Shown here piece by piece: positions 10,249 to 64,000 of a stretch of 64,000 nucleotides of DNA (its first letter is position 1; the number at the start of each line of letters is the position of its first letter). Location of the stretch: positions 1 to 64,000 of the forward strand of contig QZEE01000020.1 in assembly GCA_009917445.1 (NCBI GenBank), in the 5' to 3' direction. The notes under the pieces are model-generated. The model worked only from the letters and a program-made list of their open reading frames with translations, did not search any database and had not been told where the DNA came from. The translations under genes were made by a program, and so were the position numbers. This stretch comes from a bacterium D16-76. GTDB taxonomy: Bacteria > Bacillota > Clostridia > Oscillospirales > Acutalibacteraceae.

Positions 10249-11754
10249 ATGAACATTCGGGAAGATGCAATTTACGGACGGCAATCGGTAGACCGCAAGG
10301 ACAGTATCAGCATTGAAAGTCAAATCGAGTTTTGTAAATACGAGCTGAGAGGGGGTAACTTCCGCCAGTACACCGACAAGGGCTATTCCGGCAAGAACAC
10401 CGACCGCCCCAAATTCCAGGAGCTGATGGCTGACATCAAACGGGGCCTGATTAAGCGGGTGGTGGTCTACAAGCTGGACAGGATCAGCCGCTCCATTCTG
10501 GACTTCGCCACCATGATGGAAACCTTTCAGGCGTACAACGTGGAGTTTGTGTCCTCCACGGAAAAGTTTGATACCTCCACGCCAATGGGCCGGGCCATGC
10601 TGAACATCTGCATCGTGTTCGCCCAGCTGGAACGGGAAACCATTCAGAAGCGGGTGACGGACGCTTACTATTCCCGCTGCCAGCGCGGTTTTCACATGAG
10701 CGGCGCGGCCCCGTTCGGCTTTCAGCTTGAACCCACCACCATTCAGGGCATCCGCACAAAAATGATGAAGCCCGACCCGGAAACGGCGGACATCGCCCGG
10801 CTGATGTTTGAAATGTACGCCCAGCCCTCCACCTCGTTCGGGGACATCGCCCGGCACTTCGCAGACGTGGGTATCCTGATTTATGACAAGGAGCTGACCC
10901 GTGGCTTTATCTCCCAAATGCTCCGCAACCCCATCTACGCCCAGGCCGACCTGGAAATGTACGAATTTTTCAAAAGCCAGGGGACGGTAGTGATCAACGA
11001 GGCGGCGGACTTCGCGGGGACAAACGGCTGTTATCTCTACCAGGGCTGGGACGTGCAGGAACGAAAAAACAAGCACCTGAAAGACCAGATCCTTGTGGTG
11101 GCCCCCAGCGAGGGGCTGGTATCGGCGGATGTGTGGCTCCGCTGTCGGAAAAAGCTGATGGCGAACACCACGTTCCAGAACGGGCGCAAGGCAAAAAATA
11201 CCTGGCTGGCCGGGAAAGTGAAGTGTGGCCGCTGTGGGTACGCCTTAATGAGCGTGGGCAACCCGTCAGGCGTTCAATACCTGCGATGCTCCAAGCGGGC
11301 GGACAACAAGAGCTGTCCGGGCTGTGGGACGCTCCGCACTAGGGAATTTGAGCGGTTTATCTACGGCGAAATGGTGAAGAAGCTGGCGCAATTCCAAACC
11401 TTGACGGGCAAGCGGGAAAAGGTCAATCCCAAGCTGACCGCCTTAAATGTGGAGCTGGCCCGTGTGGAGGATGAAATTGAAAAGCTGCTGAACACCCTGA
11501 CCGGGGCCAGCGCGGTTTTGATCTCCTACGCCAACACCAAGATTGAGGAATTGGACGCACAGCGGCAGACGCTGTCAAAGGAAATCGCGGCCCTGTCTGC
11601 GGAAACCATGTCGCCGGAGCAGATCGAGCGGTTATCGGTGTACCTGAACCGCTGGGAAGAGATTGACTTTGACGACAGGCGGCAGGTGGCTGACGGCCTT
11701 ATCTCTCAAATCCGCGCCACGGGTGAATGTGTCGCTATTGAGTGGAAAATCTGA
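10249..11754 (+). CDS. Large serine recombinase (integrase/excisionase)
   Basis: The 501-residue protein has the resolvase catalytic domain at the N-terminus with nucleophile Ser13 (Y-G-R-Q-S-V-D), K-L-D-R-I-S-R and L-E-R-E-T-I-Q-K-R. A recombinase domain follows (F-G-F-Q, F-I-S-Q-M-L-R-N-P-I-Y). The zinc ribbon is C-G-R-C-G-Y-A-L with C-S-K and C-P-G-C, and a coiled coil lies near 400-450. This is the TnpX-like group that inserts and excises circular elements. It ends about 20 bases before a dyad and 70 bases before chromosomal DNA, as expected at an element end. GGAG precedes the ATG. No inactivating change was seen. Confidence 0.93.
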   Translation: MNIREDAIYGRQSVDRKDSISIESQIEFCKYELRGGNFRQYTDKGYSGKNTDRPKFQELMADIKRGLIKRVVVYKLDRISRSILDFATMMETFQAYNVEFVSSTEKFDTSTPMGRAMLNICIVFAQLERETIQKRVTDAYYSRCQRGFHMSGAAPFGFQLEPTTIQGIRTKMMKPDPETADIARLMFEMYAQPSTSFGDIARHFADVGILIYDKELTRGFISQMLRNPIYAQADLEMYEFFKSQGTVVINEAADFAGTNGCYLYQGWDVQERKNKHLKDQILVVAPSEGLVSADVWLRCRKKLMANTTFQNGRKAKNTWLAGKVKCGRCGYALMSVGNPSGVQYLRCSKRADNKSCPGCGTLRTREFERFIYGEMVKKLAQFQTLTGKREKVNPKLTALNVELARVEDEIEKLLNTLTGASAVLISYANTKIEELDAQRQTLSKEIAALSAETMSPEQIERLSVYLNRWEEIDFDDRRQVADGLISQIRATGECVAIEWKI

Positions 11755-11886: not shown

Positions 11887-13446
11887 TCAAAACCGCCCAA
11901 ACACAAACCGGCCCGATTCCGTCAAATCCTCCCAGCCCCAGGCCCGGTCCGTTGGGGTGCCGATTTTCAGCGCCGCCGAGGTCTCGTTCTTCCCGCAAAG
12001 GGACCAGTTGGCCCAGCTGATCCCCCTTTCCTCCAGGAAGTCCAGCCACACCGCCGCCTCGTCCAAAAACACCCCGCCCGAGCCGTCGGCCCGGCTGGTG
12101 CCCCATTCGCTGATAAACACCGGCAGCCCCTTGGCCATAGCCCCGTCAATGCGGTCCCGCAGGGCCTGCCCATGGGTGCCCGCATAAAAGTGCAGGGTAT
12201 ATAAGATCCCCTCCCCCTCCACAGGGTCCTGGGCGGCCAAATGTATGTCCTGGCTCCAGGTAGGGCTGCCCACCAGCACCAACCCCTTCGAGTGGGCCCG
12301 TATAGCCTTAACCACCCGCTGGGCATAGGGCTTCACATCCCCCTGCCAGCTCACGTTGCCGTTGGGCTCGTTGCAGATTTCATACAAAACGTTAGGCGTA
12401 TCCTTATACCGCTGGGCCATCCGCCCAAAGAAATCCTCGGCCTCCTCCACATGGTCCATAGGGTTGCCGTCAAAAAGGATGTGCCAATCCAGTATCACAT
12501 ACATGTCCTGGGCAATGGCCGCGTCCACAGCCTCCACGGCCCGCTTTTCCATCTTTTCCGGCTGGCTCAGGTACCCGTCCTCCGCCGTATACATGGCCAC
12601 CCGGAAAAGGTTGGCCCCATAGCCCGCCGTATTTTTAATAGCCTGCCCCCCCACAAACTCCGGGAACCACTGGATGCCATGGCTGCTCATGCCGTGCAGC
12701 ACCACCGGCTGGCCCATCTCGTTGCACAGCTGGGTACCCTTCACCTGCAGCCAGCCATTTTCCGATGCCCCACCCTTTATAGCCTCCATCGGCCCATCCG
12801 GTACGTCCGGCACACCCGGTCCAGGGGGATTCGCCCCCCCGCCCGAAAGCTTCAAAGCCCTCTGTATCAGCAAGCAGGCCTCCCCCCGGGTCAAATGCCC
12901 CAAAGGCCGGAAAGCCCCGTCCCCGTGGCCCACCACCACCCCTGCCGCGTAAGCCGCAAAGGTGCTCTCATAATACCGCCCGTCCAGTTCCCCAAAATCC
13001 TTTATTTTCGGGGACTCCGTGCTGTAATCCCCCCGCACATCCGGCAGCAAAGCCCGCATCAAAGCCTTCACCGCCACCTGCCGGGTCACCGCCTCGTCGA
13101 ACCTCTCCCCGGTCGGGGGGCACTCGTCCCAGTCCACCCAGCCCCGGTCCAAAGCCGCCTGTACCCAGCCAGCCGCCCAGTGCGGGGTCTGCCCTGCCCC
13201 CGGCGATACCCCGGCGCACCGCCCGGCAATGGTCAAAAACTGCCCAATAGACACCGCCTCCCCCGGCCGGAACAGCCCGTCCGGGTATCCCAGCAGGTAC
13301 CCTTCCCCAGCCATCTCGTTTATAGCGTCCGCATACCAGGCCCCGGCCTCCACATCGGCAAAAGCCCCCGCGCTAAGGGGCAAAGCCCCCAGCAGCACCA
13401 CCGCCGCCAGCAAAGCGCCCAGCGCCCTCCATACCGTCCTTTTCAT
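11887..13446 (-). CDS. Secreted SLH-domain glycoside hydrolase family 5 enzyme
   Basis: The enzyme probably hydrolyses beta-glucan or mannan-type polysaccharide at the cell surface. A signal peptide (A-L-L-A-A-V-V-L-L-G-A-L-P-L) is followed by three SLH repeats (about residues 28-75, 88-135 and 148-200 from this start) that anchor to the cell wall. A Pro-Gly linker precedes a GH5 domain. Acid/base Glu360 lies in C-N-E-P-N-G and nucleophile Glu447 in I-S-E-W-G. The ATG at 13,446 follows GGAGG by seven bases; the frame opens nine codons earlier. It lies alone, downstream of and on the same strand as the E1-like gene. The exact substrate is not predictable. Confidence 0.88.
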   Translation of the reverse strand: MKRTVWRALGALLAAVVLLGALPLSAGAFADVEAGAWYADAINEMAGEGYLLGYPDGLFRPGEAVSIGQFLTIAGRCAGVSPGAGQTPHWAAGWVQAALDRGWVDWDECPPTGERFDEAVTRQVAVKALMRALLPDVRGDYSTESPKIKDFGELDGRYYESTFAAYAAGVVVGHGDGAFRPLGHLTRGEACLLIQRALKLSGGGANPPGPGVPDVPDGPMEAIKGGASENGWLQVKGTQLCNEMGQPVVLHGMSSHGIQWFPEFVGGQAIKNTAGYGANLFRVAMYTAEDGYLSQPEKMEKRAVEAVDAAIAQDMYVILDWHILFDGNPMDHVEEAEDFFGRMAQRYKDTPNVLYEICNEPNGNVSWQGDVKPYAQRVVKAIRAHSKGLVLVGSPTWSQDIHLAAQDPVEGEGILYTLHFYAGTHGQALRDRIDGAMAKGLPVFISEWGTSRADGSGGVFLDEAAVWLDFLEERGISWANWSLCGKNETSAALKIGTPTDRAWGWEDLTESGRFVFGRF

Positions 13447-13465
13447 CCCTTTGCCTCCTTTGCCT

Positions 13466-14179
13466 TTATCCAAAATCCCGGCCCAAAAGGCCGTTTACCA
13501 CCACAGCCGCCAGCAGCAGCCCCGCCGCCGCCGGCACATAAGACAGCGACCCCGGCGCCGGCCGGCCGCCGGCCTTTTCCTCAGCCGGGCCCATGGGGGC
13601 GCAGGGCGGCTCTGTAGAGTACACCACCCGCACCCCGGCAATGCCCAGCTTTTTCAGCTCCCGGCGCATGGCCCTCGCCAGCGGGCACACCGAGGTCTTC
13701 TCGATCTCCGCCACCCGGAAAGCCGTAGGGTCCAGCTTGTTGCCCGTGCCCATGCAGCTTACCACCGGCGTGCCCGCCTCCCGGCACAGCCGGATCAGGG
13801 AAAGCTTCGCCGCCACGGTATCCACCGCGTCCACCACATAGTCATACTGGGCAAAATCCAGCCCGTCCCCCTCCCCGGTAAAAAACAGGGGCAGCCCCCG
13901 CACCCGGCACCCGGGGTTAATGTCCCCCACCCGCTGGGCCGCCGCCTGGGCCTTAGGCATGCCCAAGGTGCTTTCCAGGGCCAAAACCTGCCGGTTGCAG
14001 TTTGTCAAGCTTATGCTGTCGTGGTCGATGATATCCATCGCCCCCACCCCAGCCCTGGCCAGGGCCTCGATCACATACCCCCCCACGCCCCCCGCGCCGA
14101 ACACGGCCACCCGCGCCCGGCCCAAGGCTTCCATCCCCTGTGGCCCAATCAACTGTTCCTCCCGGCTAAAACGGTGCAT
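13466..14179 (-). CDS. tcdA: TcdA-like E1 enzyme (tRNA t6A dehydratase)
   Basis: The 237-residue protein carries the nucleotide-binding G-A-G-G-V-G-G-Y-V motif near the N-terminus, D-x-D-S-I-S-L-T-N-C-N-R-Q for ATP and adenylation, and V-S-C-M-G-T-G-N-K-L-D-P as in TcdA/CsdL proteins. These cyclise the N6-threonylcarbamoyladenosine of tRNA using ATP. The start M-H-R-F-S-R-E-E-Q follows AGGAGGGG, one base after the comF stop. A C-terminal hydrophobic stretch (A-A-A-G-L-L-L-A-A-V-V-V) matches the membrane helix of this family. It is part of the malic enzyme-comF-tcdA run. Confidence 0.85.
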   Translation of the reverse strand: MHRFSREEQLIGPQGMEALGRARVAVFGAGGVGGYVIEALARAGVGAMDIIDHDSISLTNCNRQVLALESTLGMPKAQAAAQRVGDINPGCRVRGLPLFFTGEGDGLDFAQYDYVVDAVDTVAAKLSLIRLCREAGTPVVSCMGTGNKLDPTAFRVAEIEKTSVCPLARAMRRELKKLGIAGVRVVYSTEPPCAPMGPAEEKAGGRPAPGSLSYVPAAAGLLLAAVVVNGLLGRDFG

Positions 14180-57245: not shown

Positions 57246-59315
57246 CTACTCTTGATAACGGATGATAACATCGTCATGGTTTCTTAGCACCTGGGTGAAC
57301 TGCCCCTCCAAGCCATTGACCAACAGTTCAACCGGCTTTTCCAGGTTATCGAAATCCAACCCGGAATACTCTAACACATCCATTAGGTAATAGTCCCCGC
57401 CCTGGGGCTTAGGCGGCAGGCGCAGCATCCCGCCGTTCAGCTGGATTTGCAGCACGGCACCTCCCCCGCTGCCAAACTCCATCTGCCCTGCCAGCTCTTC
57501 CCGCTTAGGGGGCTCCGCAGGCTGGGGCTTCTCCCGCTTGGGCTGCGGCTCCGCTTTCGGTACGCTTTCTGCCGGTGGGGGCGCGGCTTTTGCCGGCGCG
57601 GGCTTTGGTGCGGGCGGCATGGGCGGCTCAGGCGTGGCGGGGGCCGGGGGGGCTTTTACGGCTTCGGGTTCTGCTGGGGCTTTTACAGCCGGGGCCTCCT
57701 CTTGCGCCGCAGGGCGGCTCCGCCGGCTTTGGGGCGGCGGGGTGCCGGGTATGGCCTCTACAACATCGCCGGAAGACAGCTTATAGGCTGGGCCTTCTAC
57801 CTGGCCGTTTACGGTGGCGCTGGCGTAGCCCTCTGCCAGCAGGGCGCCCAGGGTACAGGCTGCGGCGGCCCCGGCGGTGGCTGGGGTAAAGTCGATGCGG
57901 TCCCCGGCCTGCACCACGTCGGAGAGCTGGGCCTCTTCCCCGTTGCGCAGCATACGGGCACCCTTGCCAGGCGCGCCCCTGAACAGACGGCGCTGGCCGT
58001 TTAGGGTAATGGCCAGGTTCGCGCCTGTATGGCCGATCATGTCCCCGTAGTGGTAGCCGTTCATCAAGAGTACGTCCCGCAGGGTCAAAAGGCCGCTGCG
58101 GAAAAGCTTGGCGGGGCTGCCGTTTAGGGTGATCATATAGCTGTCGTTGATCATGCCCAGGGCCGCGGAGATGGCAATGCCCAGGGGGGTGGCCAGCTCG
58201 GGGTCGTCCAGGGCGTATTCGTCGCAGTAGGCCCCGGTTTCAAAGTGGCGGCCAGCCAGGGCCACCCGGCCTTCGCTCATTTCCAGCTCTTCGGCCACCA
58301 GCTGGGTTAGGCCGGCAAGCTTGGCCCCGCCCCCCGCCAGGAACACCGCAGAGGGGGTGCTGCCGTTTATTTCTACGGCTTTGCCAGCGATTTCTTTTGC
58401 CAGCCGCTGGGCCGCCGGCTGGGCCAGCTTCCACAGGGCCTCTGGGTCGGCTTCGTGCTTGAGGCCCAGGATGTCGGAATAGGGCTGGGGCTCTTTGCCC
58501 CCAATGCAGAGCTTTAGGCGCTCGGCGGTTTTGAAATCTACTAAAAGGCCCTTCATGATGGCTTCGGTCACTTCGTCCCCGGCAACGGTGGCCATAGTAT
58601 AGCCTACCACGCTGCCTTCCCGGCATACGGCCAGGTCGGAGGTGCCTGCGCCGATGTCCGCCAGCACCAGGTTTAAAAGGCGGATATCTTCGGGTATGGC
58701 GGCGTTTAGGGAGGCAATGGGCTCTAGGGTCAGGCTGGCTACCTCCAGGCCCAGGCGGCCCATGACGGCGTAAAGGCTCTCGACTACCCCGCAGGGCAGG
58801 AAGGTGGAGACTACCTCTACCTCGAACCGCCGGCCCCGGTGGCCCATAAGGTTTGCCATGGCGTAGCCGTCCAGCTTATAGCCGCGGGCGGTATAGCCTA
58901 CCATATAGAAGCGGTCCTGGGCTTCGCTTTCCGCAGCCAGCTGGGCTTCGGCCGCGGACACGGCCCCGGCCTCCAGCTGGCCCAGCAGGTCGCCGTCGGC
59001 CACCCGCAGCTCTGGGAATTCCAGGCTGAAGGACGCCCCCTGGCTGCGCAGGGCCCGGCCTGCCGCCGCCACACACACCCGTTTCAGCTGGGTTTGGGTT
59101 TTCTGCTCCAGCCGTTTTAGGACGGCCTTTGCCACCTCTGCTACCTGTTCGATCTCAACAATCTGCCCATCCAGCATGGCCCGGCGGCCATGCTCCTCTT
59201 TTTCAATGGCCGCTACGTGAAAACGGCCCTTTTCCGCCCGGCCCACTATGCCGATAATGCTGCGGGTGCCAATGTCCAGCGCGAAAATCGTCTCTGCGTC
59301 CTGCTTTTGCGGCAC
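57246..59315 (-). CDS. FtsA-like actin-fold ATPase with beta-grasp-like C-terminal repeats
   Basis: The 689-residue protein has FtsA/PilM motifs: phosphate-1 A-L-D-I-G-T-R-S near residue 13, the SHS2-like insert, phosphate-2 A-D-I-G-A-G-T-S-D-L-A, and adenosine V-F-L-A-G-G-G-A-K-L. Actin-like sequence ends near 385. After it come several short units of the form x-L-N-G-x-x-x-x-L followed by G-D-x-I (near 395, 430, 475 and 610), split by a Pro/Ala/Lys linker (525-600). FtsA proteins are usually about 420 residues and end in an amphipathic helix, which is not seen. It is thus probably not the main FtsA. Confidence 0.75.
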   Translation of the reverse strand: MPQKQDAETIFALDIGTRSIIGIVGRAEKGRFHVAAIEKEEHGRRAMLDGQIVEIEQVAEVAKAVLKRLEQKTQTQLKRVCVAAAGRALRSQGASFSLEFPELRVADGDLLGQLEAGAVSAAEAQLAAESEAQDRFYMVGYTARGYKLDGYAMANLMGHRGRRFEVEVVSTFLPCGVVESLYAVMGRLGLEVASLTLEPIASLNAAIPEDIRLLNLVLADIGAGTSDLAVCREGSVVGYTMATVAGDEVTEAIMKGLLVDFKTAERLKLCIGGKEPQPYSDILGLKHEADPEALWKLAQPAAQRLAKEIAGKAVEINGSTPSAVFLAGGGAKLAGLTQLVAEELEMSEGRVALAGRHFETGAYCDEYALDDPELATPLGIAISAALGMINDSYMITLNGSPAKLFRSGLLTLRDVLLMNGYHYGDMIGHTGANLAITLNGQRRLFRGAPGKGARMLRNGEEAQLSDVVQAGDRIDFTPATAGAAAACTLGALLAEGYASATVNGQVEGPAYKLSSGDVVEAIPGTPPPQSRRSRPAAQEEAPAVKAPAEPEAVKAPPAPATPEPPMPPAPKPAPAKAAPPPAESVPKAEPQPKREKPQPAEPPKREELAGQMEFGSGGGAVLQIQLNGGMLRLPPKPQGGDYYLMDVLEYSGLDFDNLEKPVELLVNGLEGQFTQVLRNHDDVIIRYQE

Positions 59316-59428: not shown

Positions 59429-61204
59429 TTAATACTTGTCGTCGTAGTAGCTGCTGCTATAAGAGGAGATCTCGTTGCTTTCCTGAACCGGGGCGGCTAC
59501 GGGGGTGCTGATGCCCTGGCTGCCGTAGTCCCGCAGGGTGAACTTGGCCATAAGCTGCTTCATCAGCTGGGCCTGGCTGGACAGCTCTTCGCTGGCCGCG
59601 GCGCTCTGCTCGCTTGTGGCGGAATTGTTCTGCACCACCGCGCTGATCTGGTCGATGCCCTCACGGATCTGCTCAATGGATTCAGCCTGCTGCTGGCTGG
59701 CGTCGGCTACGTCGCCCATTTTGGCAACGGCGGAGTTGACCAGCTCGACGGTCTTTTCCAGGGCATCGGACACGTCGGACACATAGATGCTGCCCCTCTG
59801 TACGGCGGTAATGGCGTTCTCGATGCGGGCCTTGGTAGCCTTGGAAGCTTCGTCAGACTTGGAAGCCAGCTGGCGTACTTCGTCGGCCACAACCGCAAAG
59901 CCCTTGCCGGCGGAACCAGCCCGGGCAGCCTCTACGGCAGCGTTGAGGGCCAGGATGTTGGTCTGGAACGCAATGTTGGAAATGGTATCGATGATCTCGC
60001 GGACCTCTTCGGCCGCGGTTTTGATCTCTTCCATTGCGGTCACCATGCCGCGCATGTGCTCGTTGCACACGGTAATCTGGGCGTTGGCGTCGTTGGACAT
60101 GGCGCTGGAATCTTTGGCCAGGCCCACGCTCTCCTCGGCGCCCTGGGCGATCTCGGTGACAGTGGCGGACAGCTCCTCAACGGCGCTGGCCTGCTGGGTG
60201 GCGCCTTGGGCCAGGGCCTGGGCGCTGTTGGACACCTGCTCGGCCCCAGAGGAAACCTGGTCTGAAGAGGACTGAATCTGCTGCAGGGTGGTGCTCAGGC
60301 TGCGGTTGATTGCCCGCATGGAGGTGAGCACGGAGGACAGGGCGCCTACATACATATCCTCGGCCTGGGTGCGCACATCGAAGTTGCCGCCGGCCATCTC
60401 TTCCAGCAGGCGGCCTTCGTCGCCAATGACAGAGGTAAGCACATGCTGGCTGGTGCGCAGGGCCTTGCACATATCGCCCAGCTCGTTTTCGCTTTCGTAG
60501 TTTACGGGGATGTCCAGCTTGCCTTCGCTGAAGCCCACCAGGGCGGTGCGCACTTCCTCAACCGGCTTGGTAATGCCCTTGATGATCCGGATCTCCATAA
60601 GGAACACAAAGATGGAGGAAAGCAGCATGACCGCAATGATGAGGATGATGGACCACATCACCAAGTCTTCTTGGCGGGACAGGGTTTCCGTCTGGGCTGC
60701 CAGGAGGGCGTCGGTGACAGACTGGGAAGTTTCGGCCGTGGCATTGATCAGGGGGGAGCACTCCTCCAGGATCATGCGGATGCCCTCGTCCTTATCGGTC
60801 TTCAGGGTTTCCAGGATGCCGGGCACGGAGTTGCCCCAGTCGCCTACGCTGGTCAGGTATTCGTCCAGCTTTGTGGTGTCTTCCAAGGGGTAGATCTCCT
60901 TGAGCTTCTGAAGCTCTTCGGACAGGGTGGCCAGGGTATCGTTGATGCGGGTTTCCCGGGCGGTGTTGTCGGTGCCCTCAGGGGACAGGGCAATGTCCCG
61001 CAGGTGGCGGGCGCCGATGTTGGTGTTCATGCGGGCCTGGTAGATCAGGGTACCTGCCTGGATATCCTTATTGATGATCTTCTGGTAGGTACTGGTCTGC
61101 TTGTTCATGATAACCAGGGTGGCGATGATGATCACCAGGGACACCAGCAATGTGACGGCCCACCCCATTATCAAGCTCACCTTGACTTTCATGTTCTTGA
61201 GCAT
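59429..61204 (-). CDS. Methyl-accepting chemotaxis protein
   Basis: The 591-residue receptor has a first membrane helix (11-33), a four-helix-bundle sensor region (34-180), a second helix (183-206), HAMP (207-260) and the signalling hairpin with tip [19 protein letters not shown]. It ends in a flexible tail ([12 protein letters not shown]). The ligand is unknown. It lies 110 bases upstream of the FtsA-like gene on the same strand. Confidence 0.95.
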
Positions 61205-61340: not shown

Positions 61341-62045
61341 TTATACGATATCCCCAAAGCGGCCCTTCTCCACGTCCCCTACTACCCGGCCGTCTACCAG
61401 GGTGACCACCCGCCGGCGCATGAAGTTGACGAACTGTTTGGCGTGGGTGGACATGACAATGGTGGTGCCCCGCTGGTTAAGCTCGTTTAGCAGCATGAAA
61501 ATGTCCCAGATGCTGTCGTCGTCCATGCGGTCCGTGATCTTGTCTAAAAGCAGGATCGGCGGGCTGTTGAAGATGGCCTTGGCCAGCTCTACCCGTTTGC
61601 ACTGGGAGATGGACATGTCCAGCGGGTAGCGGTACTCGCACCCCGCCATGCCCACCAGGCCCAGGGCTTTTTTCATCCGGGGCTCATCTACCAGGCGGGT
61701 GCGCAGGCGCTCCATTTTTTTCATGGAGCACATGTTGTCGTACACCGTGGCCGAGCGCACCAGCGCCGATTCCTGGGGGACTTTGCCGAATATGTAGGGC
61801 AGCTTTTTCTGCTGGCGGCGGGTAAGCTTGTCAAGGTTGAAATGGTTCAGGTACACCACGCCGTCGTCTGGCGGCAGGTCCCCGGCGATCATTTCCAGCA
61901 GGGTGGTGCTGCCAGCCCCCCGGCTGCCCACCACAAAGACGAATTCCCCCTGCTCGATGGTCAGGTTCACGTCCCGCAGGGTCTCGAACTTGTGGCCGTG
62001 GCCTTTAAATATTTTTGAAACGTGTTCCAAACGGATGGTTGGCAT
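61341..62045 (-). CDS. FtsE-like ABC protein with lost catalytic residues
   Basis: The 234-residue protein aligns with FtsE-type ABC ATPases along its length. Walker A reads G40-S-R-G-A-G-S46-T-T, so the lysine is Ser46. The signature reads M-S-I-S-Q (144-148) instead of L-S-G-G-x. Walker B reads I-L-L-L-D168-K169, so the catalytic Glu is Lys. Gln91 of the Q-loop and His201 of the H-loop remain. It is unlikely to bind or hydrolyse ATP normally. No ftsX gene is beside it. The ATG at 62,045 with AAGGAG upstream is preferred over longer forms. Confidence 0.85.
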   Translation of the reverse strand: MPTIRLEHVSKIFKGHGHKFETLRDVNLTIEQGEFVFVVGSRGAGSTTLLEMIAGDLPPDDGVVYLNHFNLDKLTRRQQKKLPYIFGKVPQESALVRSATVYDNMCSMKKMERLRTRLVDEPRMKKALGLVGMAGCEYRYPLDMSISQCKRVELAKAIFNSPPILLLDKITDRMDDDSIWDIFMLLNELNQRGTTIVMSTHAKQFVNFMRRRVVTLVDGRVVGDVEKGRFGDIV

Positions 62046-62158
62046 GGTTTGTCTGCTCCTTCGCCCCCTTTGTGGACCGGGTAGCCGCTTTACAAAAGCA
62101 GCGGCGTTTGGTATACTTTCTATATGGTACGAGAATCCCACCAGCCGGAGGTAGCCCC

Positions 62159-63064
62159 ATGAAGCGCGGCAGGAAGAAAAACCGCATATGGCCCTTTTTC
62201 CTGCTGGCCGCCCTATGCGTGGCCGGCATGGAACTGCTTTTTTGCAGCTACTATGCCCCGGCGGAGTTTGCCCGGATTACCGGGCCCGTAGTAGGGGCCG
62301 TGGAAGGCTTTTGCACCTACGTGGGCGATTCGGTACGGGAGGCCGCCACGCGGCTGCGGGTACGCACCCTTTTGCGGGACTGCGCCCGGGCCAGCGCCGC
62401 CCCCTTCCCCCTTGAGTTTGCCTTGCCCCAGGTAGCGGAAATGCCCCTGGTGCCCCCCAAGGAAAAGCCGGCGCCGGCGGACCCGGTCATTACCCGGTTT
62501 TCTATGGAAAACGGGCAGGAGGTGCTTACCGGCGGCACGGTGCCCTGTGTATATTATAATCAACAAGAGGCCCCTTGGTCAAGTATGGCTTTTGGGGGGG
62601 ACCCCATTGGGCCTTATGGATGCGGGCCGGTGGCTATGGCCATGGTGGTTTCTTCTATGACAAGCCAGCCTATGGACCCAGGCCAGATGGCTGCCTGGGC
62701 GGCTGAAAACGGGTACTGGGCCCCGCAGAGCGGTTCTTATCACAGCTTGATACCCGATGCCTCTGTGGCTTTTGGGCTGGGGTGCACCCGCCTGGGGGCC
62801 TGCAGCCCCGACCAGATGGTGCGGGCCCTGCTGGGCGGCGACATGCTGGTGGCCCTGATGGGCCCCGGGCATTTTACCAGCAGCGGCCACTTTATTGTGC
62901 TGCGGGGCGTCACCCTGGGCGGCGAGGTGCTGGTTGCCGACCCCAACAGCCGGGAAAACAGCCTGGTCACCTGGGACCCCCAACTGCTGCTGGACCAGAT
63001 GTACGTAAGCGACGGCCACGGCCTGGGGCTGTGGCAGATTTCTGCCCCGCCGCCCCAGCTATAG
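62159..63064 (+). CDS. Membrane-anchored C39-type cysteine peptidase
   Basis: The 301-residue protein has an N-terminal membrane helix (W-P-F-F-L-L-A-A-L-C-V-A-G), a stalk, and a C39_2 domain (125-290). The motif Y-Y-N-Q-Q-E-A-P-W precedes catalytic Cys in G-P-Y-G-C-G-P-V-A-M-A. The histidine is in S-S-G-H-F-I-V-L and the aspartate in V-A-D-P-N-S-R-E. It acts outside the cytoplasm, perhaps on surface proteins or peptides. GGAGG lies seven bases before the ATG. It is divergent from the FtsE-like gene and convergent with fliT. Confidence 0.88.
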   Translation: MKRGRKKNRIWPFFLLAALCVAGMELLFCSYYAPAEFARITGPVVGAVEGFCTYVGDSVREAATRLRVRTLLRDCARASAAPFPLEFALPQVAEMPLVPPKEKPAPADPVITRFSMENGQEVLTGGTVPCVYYNQQEAPWSSMAFGGDPIGPYGCGPVAMAMVVSSMTSQPMDPGQMAAWAAENGYWAPQSGSYHSLIPDASVAFGLGCTRLGACSPDQMVRALLGGDMLVALMGPGHFTSSGHFIVLRGVTLGGEVLVADPNSRENSLVTWDPQLLLDQMYVSDGHGLGLWQISAPPPQL

Positions 63065-63238: not shown

Positions 63239-63637
63239 TTATGTCCGGAATTTGCTGTAGAAAGAGTGCCGGCCGTCTATCCGCAGGCTTACCCGCCTGT
63301 CCAGCTCTTGGGAACGGTCCAGCAGGCGGCGGTTTTGCGCCACCTGGCTGCACAGGGGTTCTTCCTCTTTCTTTTGGGCTTCGCTGCCGGTTAGCAGCTG
63401 GTGGGCGCGTATGGCTTCTTCTTCTGGGAGCTTTAGCACGCCTTCGTGCAGCTGGGCTTCGATCTCCTTGAGGTCGTGGATGGGGTCTTCCCGCATGTGC
63501 AGCAGCATCTGCACCGATACTTCGTCTTTGCGGTCTACGGCCTCGCCCAGCTGCTGGGTCAGGTCGAAAAACTCCAGCAGCTTGATGTATTGCCTGCGCG
63601 TTTTTATGAATAAGTCCTTTAGGGTCTTTTCCTCCAT
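63239..63637 (-). CDS. FliT/FlgN-like flagellar chaperone
   Basis: The 132-residue protein is predicted as mostly helical with a charged coiled coil (M-E-E-K-T-L-K-D-L-F, L-E-F-F-D-L-T-Q-Q-L-G-E-A-V). Size and position directly behind fliS suggest FliT, the filament-cap chaperone, though FlgN-like proteins look similar. Family motifs are weak, so the call rests mostly on context. Confidence 0.6.
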   Translation of the reverse strand: MEEKTLKDLFIKTRRQYIKLLEFFDLTQQLGEAVDRKDEVSVQMLLHMREDPIHDLKEIEAQLHEGVLKLPEEEAIRAHQLLTGSEAQKKEEEPLCSQVAQNRRLLDRSQELDRRVSLRIDGRHSFYSKFRT

Positions 63638-63684: not shown

Positions 63685-64000
63685 TTACGGCTGCTGCCCG
63701 CTGGGGGCCGCCGGCTGTTCGGCGCAGTTCTTTTCCGCTGCCCGGAAGCTGTCCCGCAGATCCAGCACCATGGGCTTGATTTCGCCCAGCACCTCTTTGT
63801 TGCGGCCAATTTTTACCCGGCCCAGCTGGTAGCCAAAATAATCGTACAGCCGGTGCAGGTCATTGGCGATGGGGTACTGCCGGTCCAGGGTGTCGTCCAG
63901 GTACTGCACGATATCCATGCTCCGGTCTACCGAGGCGTCCAGCTGCTCAAAGTCCTCTTGCTGCAGGGCCAGCTCGCAGCGCACCAGGTGCTTTACCAGC
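63685..64000 (-). CDS. fliS: Flagellin chaperone FliS, C-terminal part at window edge
   Basis: At least 104 residues run to the right edge. The sequence L-V-R-C-E-L-A-L-Q-Q-E-D-F and V-Q-Y-L-D-D-T-L-D with H-R-L-Y-D-Y-F-G-Y-Q-L matches FliS, which holds flagellin before export. The N-terminus is outside the window. It precedes a FliT-like gene, and flagellin is 7 kb away on the same strand. Confidence 0.85.
   Translation of the reverse strand, partial: LVKHLVRCELALQQEDFEQLDASVDRSMDIVQYLDDTLDRQYPIANDLHRLYDYFGYQLGRVKIGRNKEVLGEIKPMVLDLRDSFRAAEKNCAEQPAAPSGQQP

Follow-up and report, generated by a model that had tools for sequence, protein, structure and literature searches.

In cell division, wall hydrolysis is under the control of a trans-membrane system whose known motor is FtsE. 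In a 64,000-nucleotide stretch of the D16-76 genome (the window), one reading frame encodes an FtsE-like protein in which key ATPase residues are replaced and beside which no ftsX stands. Is this gene a remnant on its way out, or is it maintained as a protein that no longer hydrolyses ATP? If maintained, what process does it serve?

An FtsE paralogue apart from FtsX

The frame is intact, with 234 residues, a stop codon and no internal stops by translation. We set its start at the ATG at 62045, rather than at the GTG at 62141 to which the open frame reaches back, because orthologues start at MPTI. We use FtsE2 as our own label for this ftsX-less family of FtsE paralogues. The gene and its altered motifs are as follows.

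61341..62045, reverse strand: FtsE2, FtsE-like putative pseudo-ATPase, 234 aa (translation, FtsE family match, orthologue alignment)
61902..61928, reverse strand: degenerate Walker A, G40-S-R-G-A-G-S-T-T48, Lys to Ser46 and Ser to Arg42 (orthologue alignment)
61602..61616, reverse strand: degenerate signature, M144-S-I-S-Q148, Gly to Ser147 in the fourth position (orthologue alignment)
61539..61544, reverse strand: end of Walker B, D168 retained and catalytic Glu replaced by Lys169 (orthologue alignment)

The Walker A lysine position is Ser46 (codon AGC, 61908-61910), and Walker B reads LLLDK, with the Lys169 codon (61539-61541) right after D168. Q91, D168 and H201 are retained. Translation bears out the first-pass annotation, which reported Ser46, Lys169 and the MSISQ signature in an intact frame with Q-loop and H-loop kept, and which correctly found no adjacent ftsX; it omitted two changes, Arg42 and Ser147.

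The top NCBIfam match of FtsE2 is FtsE (TIGR02673), at 144 bits, under the curated cut-off of 264.85 bits. A structure model built from 17 aligned orthologues (pLDDT 79) matched Streptococcus pneumoniae FtsE (6z63) with a Z score of 28.0 at 33% identity, placing it in the FtsE/type VII nucleotide-binding domain (NBD) fold. FtsE2 thus shares the fold of FtsE from the FtsEX type VII ABC system (S. pneumoniae 6z63, M. tuberculosis 8idb), and like FtsE it has the C-terminal stretch RVV..DG..V.D..KG.FG as well as FtsE for its best family match. Unlike FtsE of FtsEX, it lacks the Walker A Lys and the catalytic Glu, its signature is degraded, no ftsX adjoins it, its groove regions have diverged, and its setting is flagellar rather than divisional. 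A further structure, 9iue, with 18 FtsE chains, was considered as a possible flagellar ring and rejected, being an FtsE/X-ZipA filament.

The genome also has the separate FtsEX pair for which the first-pass annotation proposed to look: an intact, apparently active ftsE followed by ftsX, on another contig (C116). This canonical FtsE scores 297.6 bits, above the same TIGR02673 cut-off, and the one match to the FtsX_Gpos family in the genome is on a contig other than that of FtsE2. No permease gene was found next to FtsE2 among the open reading frames and family matches of the window. Canonical FtsE and FtsX are present in nearly all relatives, with or without FtsE2. FtsE2 is a paralogue and not the cell's own FtsE.

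Loss of catalytic residues across one clade

Within the genus, an orthologue of FtsE2 was found in 16 of 29 genomes. The Walker A Lys and Walker B Glu are absent from all 14 of the closest orthologues (the D16-76 copy included), every one from this genus. Walker A in these 14 reads GSRGAGS[ST]T, and Walker B ends in DK or DR, position 169 being Lys in ten and Arg in four. P-loop Arg42 (from Ser) and signature Ser147 (from Gly) are invariant among them, as are G40, S41, G43-S46, T48, Q91 and D168; the A-loop aromatic is retained, and the H-loop histidine (H201) is missing in four. Arg42 is encoded by the synonymous codons CGG, CGC and AGA, and the charges at 42 and 169 persist through codon changes. 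Chance or sequencing error was ruled out as the source of the substitutions, since 14 genomes agree, including the single-contig genome G022.

The 14 form a single clade in the tree (support 95/86). Two copies of the same genus outside it, in G019 and G028, keep the Walker A Lys and the catalytic Glu, as do all full-length orthologues from other genera and families except L066. In the competent copies of the Oscillospirales (L026, which is the gene of G019, with L027, L028, L053-L065, L067-L070 and L074) the fourth-position signature Gly is kept along with Lys and Glu. Because these outgroup orthologues hold both residues, we interpret the distribution as a single loss of catalysis from an FtsE2 ancestor that was, to judge by its residues, catalytically competent. 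The exception has the following position.

L066:1501-2184 (genome G107), L180: highly diverged FtsE2 copy (alignment, tree)

This copy is sister to the 14-member clade (support 97/96) on a long branch (1.39), and it is intermediate in its residues: it has the P-loop Arg and the Gly-to-Ser change in the signature, and it has lost the catalytic Glu and the H-loop His while keeping the Walker A Lys. As the lysine survives there without the glutamate or the signature glycine, the signature and the catalytic glutamate probably went earlier than the Walker A lysine.

Could the gene be a decaying pseudogene whose frame is still open? Several motifs are gone, with the H-loop histidine gone too in four members, as decay would predict. 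Pairwise dN/dS among the 14 species is 0.03-0.11, evidence of purifying selection, 118 of 234 positions are invariant, and no copy has a stop codon; we disfavour decay as extremely improbable. The first-pass annotation would have withdrawn its proposal had relatives kept the catalytic residues while this copy alone decayed. Its objection does not apply, as near relatives share the losses and only outgroups keep the residues. The proposal itself, a pseudo-ATPase kept for a non-hydrolytic role, gains from the finding of 14 species in one clade at these dN/dS values: on its residues, FtsE2 of the 14 is most likely a pseudo-ATPase.

Degenerate NBDs are known in asymmetric ABC transporters. Nucleotide-binding site 1 (NBS1) of Pdr5 has Cys for the Walker A Lys and deviates in every motif (PMC7756269), and FtsE2 resembles such sites in being a conserved NBD without Lys, Glu and signature. 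By contrast, those sites form half of a transporter that has a working second site and transmembrane domains, whereas FtsE2 stands alone, an NBD to which neither a permease nor a second NBD is linked.

In S. pneumoniae FtsE, the cavity that receives the FtsX coupling helix is shaped by regions R2-R4 (PMC7468199). In a single alignment that is gapped in R4, the R2/R3/R4 identities to this FtsE were 32/49/45% for canonical FtsE, 7/41/20% for competent FtsE2 and 12/27/9% for the 14; outside R2-R4 they were 52%, 41% and 37%, respectively. The groove for the coupling helix is thus not conserved in FtsE2 at the level of sequence. This divergence suggests that the usual mode of coupling to FtsX is probably absent from FtsE2.

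A flagellar locus

The FtsE2 family was seen only in Oscillospirales in the samples searched. A class-wide profile search of 291 genomes, which a diverged form could escape, yielded none outside that order; D16-76 and G048 aside, scores matched the canonical FtsE level throughout. Those relatives that bear a name come from gut metagenomes, as assemblies labelled Oscillibacter, Intestinimonas, Pseudoflavonifractor, Flavonifractor, Butyricicoccus and Agathobaculum.

Presence of FtsE2 goes with that of flagellar genes. In an order-wide sample of 394 genomes, FliF was found in 18/18 with FtsE2 vs 70/394 overall (hypergeometric 4e-15, a statistic that takes no account of kinship or linkage). In the genus, the 16 genomes with FtsE2 take in all 15 with FliF, the exception being the 60%-complete G024, which has FtsE2 and no FliF match, and FliF is absent from all 13 genomes that lack FtsE2. 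Since the FtsE2 gene lies inside a flagellar cluster, joint gain and loss would be expected from linkage, and the co-occurrence shows association, not function. The cell-division setting suggested by the first-pass annotation is not borne out; the gene tracks the flagellar cluster and not division genes.

Of 38 loci fetched, two were duplicates, and we compared the 36 that are distinct. The setting is flagellar in all of them, and the gene order ParA-like, FliD, FliS, FliT-like, C39-type peptidase, FtsE2 holds wherever the contig extends. The neighbours in the window are as follows.

57246..59315, reverse strand: FtsA-like actin-fold protein, 689 aa (FtsA match under the FtsA cut-off)
59429..61204, reverse strand: methyl-accepting chemotaxis protein (MCP), directly downstream of FtsE2 (MCPsignal match; weaker 4HB_MCP_1 and HAMP matches)
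62159..63064, forward strand: C39-like cysteine peptidase with a hydrophobic N-terminal segment, divergent to FtsE2 (locus comparison)
63239..63637, reverse strand: small FliT/FlgN-like protein, a name given from its position (no Pfam match)
63685..63999, reverse strand: FliS, incomplete at the window edge

The MCP gene follows FtsE2 in 31 of the 34 distinct loci with enough contig; in the remaining three the FtsA-like gene comes straight after FtsE2. Competent copies share this position: in a flagellar cluster without ftsX, they lie between the C39 peptidase and an MCP or FtsA-like gene. The C39 peptidase gene adjoins FtsE2 in every distinct locus, reversed in orientation in two genomes, and its catalytic Cys, His and Asp motifs are retained in the aligned loci. 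Among 60 relatives, a close orthologue of the peptidase (E below 1e-60) was found in exactly the 17 genomes that have FtsE2.

The FtsA-like protein is the strongest FtsA-type match in the D16-76 genome, which has two weaker ones elsewhere (347-351 aa). Its gene co-occurs with FtsE2 in 16/16 genomes of the genus and is confined there to genomes with the flagellar cluster; no FtsA scoring above the cut-off was found in the 60 relatives. Because it occurs in the same 16 genomes as FtsE2, with no above-cut-off FtsA in those relatives, the 689-aa protein looks like a flagellar-locus protein rather than a division FtsA. The contact with FtsE2 raised in the first-pass annotation is possible given this co-occurrence, whereas the idea that the two meet as division partners loses ground, the FtsA-like protein being under the cut-off and, in the genus, flagellar-cluster-only. 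An MCP gene usually sits between the two, and in several FtsE2-bearing relatives of another family (f13) the fetched regions yielded no FtsA-like gene.

A ParA-like ATPase gene and one for a ComFB-domain protein adjoin fliD in nearly all loci (for example L051:11055-11834, forward strand, outside the window); together they may serve to place flagella or receptors. A scan for the sigma-28 consensus upstream of FtsE2 and the MCP gave background-level scores only, as did the flagellin control. Correlations between the distance matrix of FtsE2 and those of C39, MCP and FliT-like proteins were all high (partial r 0.25, 0.46 and 0.55, respectively), and did not separate the neighbours.

Possible roles of FtsE2

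The account that we favour, and consider reasonably probable, is that FtsE2 is a flagellar-locus paralogue of FtsE apart from FtsX, turned pseudo-ATPase once in the genus and maintained since as a scaffold or adaptor for the flagellar or chemosensory apparatus. A paralogue of FtsE would have been separated from FtsX and settled in the flagellar cluster; hydrolysing no ATP, it may now be a fixed scaffold or adaptor at the cytoplasmic membrane face, forming with the MCP, FtsA-like, ParA-like and C39 proteins a module that helps place or assemble the apparatus. Competent relatives would do the same job as an ATP-driven switch. Several points weigh against this account: the co-occurrence of FtsE2 with FliF is partly due to the gene's place in the cluster, the distance matrices singled out no partner, the promoter scan gave no sigma-28-like site upstream, and the P-loop, Q91 and D168 are so well retained that nucleotide binding may persist.

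The last of these leads to the main alternative to a non-enzymatic scaffold, a switch that binds nucleotide without hydrolysing it. Here the active site would have been re-wired, with Arg42 and Lys/Arg169 making up for the charges of the former Lys46 and Glu169 and an ATP or phosphate ligand held uncleaved. The constancy of Arg42 despite synonymous codons, the restriction of 169 to Lys or Arg, the invariant P-loop, Q91 and D168 positions and the retained A-loop aromatic all fit such a switch. So do their positions: residue 169 takes the site of the catalytic glutamate, next to the gamma-phosphate, and Arg42 falls in the alignment at S39 of S. pneumoniae FtsE, a residue in contact with the gamma-phosphate (PMC7468199). 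However, the signature, by which the other subunit would grip the gamma-phosphate, is degraded in 14/14, H201 is lost in 4/14, and conservation at active-site positions only marginally exceeds that of the remainder (permutation p = 0.056); we regard the switch as possible and rather unlikely. Alternatively, FtsE2 could govern the neighbouring surface C39 peptidase in opening the wall for the flagellum, in the manner of FtsEX, through some membrane subunit. FtsEX controls wall hydrolases, for example PcsB, CwlO and RipC (PMC11627006), and the peptidase, its catalytic motifs kept, adjoins FtsE2 throughout and matches its distribution among the 60 relatives. That match could come from linkage alone; moreover, in nearly all loci the peptidase and FtsE2 genes are transcribed away from each other, there is no FtsX-like permease nearby, and by inspection the peptidase appears to have just a short cytoplasmic tail, which leaves such control doubtful. 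A role in division, in which FtsE2 would pair with canonical FtsE, FtsX or the FtsA-like protein to tune septal wall hydrolysis, draws on the nearest solved structures, which are FtsE proteins, and on the shared presence of the FtsA-like gene in the 16 genomes. It is quite improbable, as none of the 13 species of the genus that lack flagellar genes has FtsE2 and most of them do have FtsEX, the FtsX-groove regions of FtsE2 have diverged, and the sub-threshold FtsA-like protein is limited to those same genomes.

Returning to the scaffold account, we offer a broader and speculative version of it: FtsE-like, FtsA-like and ParA-like proteins may have been re-used in Oscillospirales as a module placing flagella or chemoreceptors, the FtsE-like subunit having become in one clade a hydrolysis-dead nucleotide sensor, its P-loop Lys and catalytic Glu replaced by the new charges Arg42 and Lys/Arg169. 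No description of a stand-alone, ftsX-less FtsE family of flagellar clusters with a dead clade was found in the open-access literature searched. From competent enzymes the family passes by way of an intermediate to a dead form that is still conserved, and it thereby offers a clean test, set up by nature, of what remains possible for an FtsE-type NBD that has neither ATP hydrolysis nor FtsX. It also points to a tie of flagella to division-type proteins in gut Clostridia that has gone undescribed.

Elsewhere in the window, a large serine-recombinase-like frame lies near the start (10249-11754, forward strand), preceded by relaxase-like and MerR/ABC genes; their translations suggest an integrated mobile element there. 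The gene at 11887-13473 on the reverse strand encodes a protein in which an SLH domain is joined to a glycosyl hydrolase family 5 (cellulase) domain.
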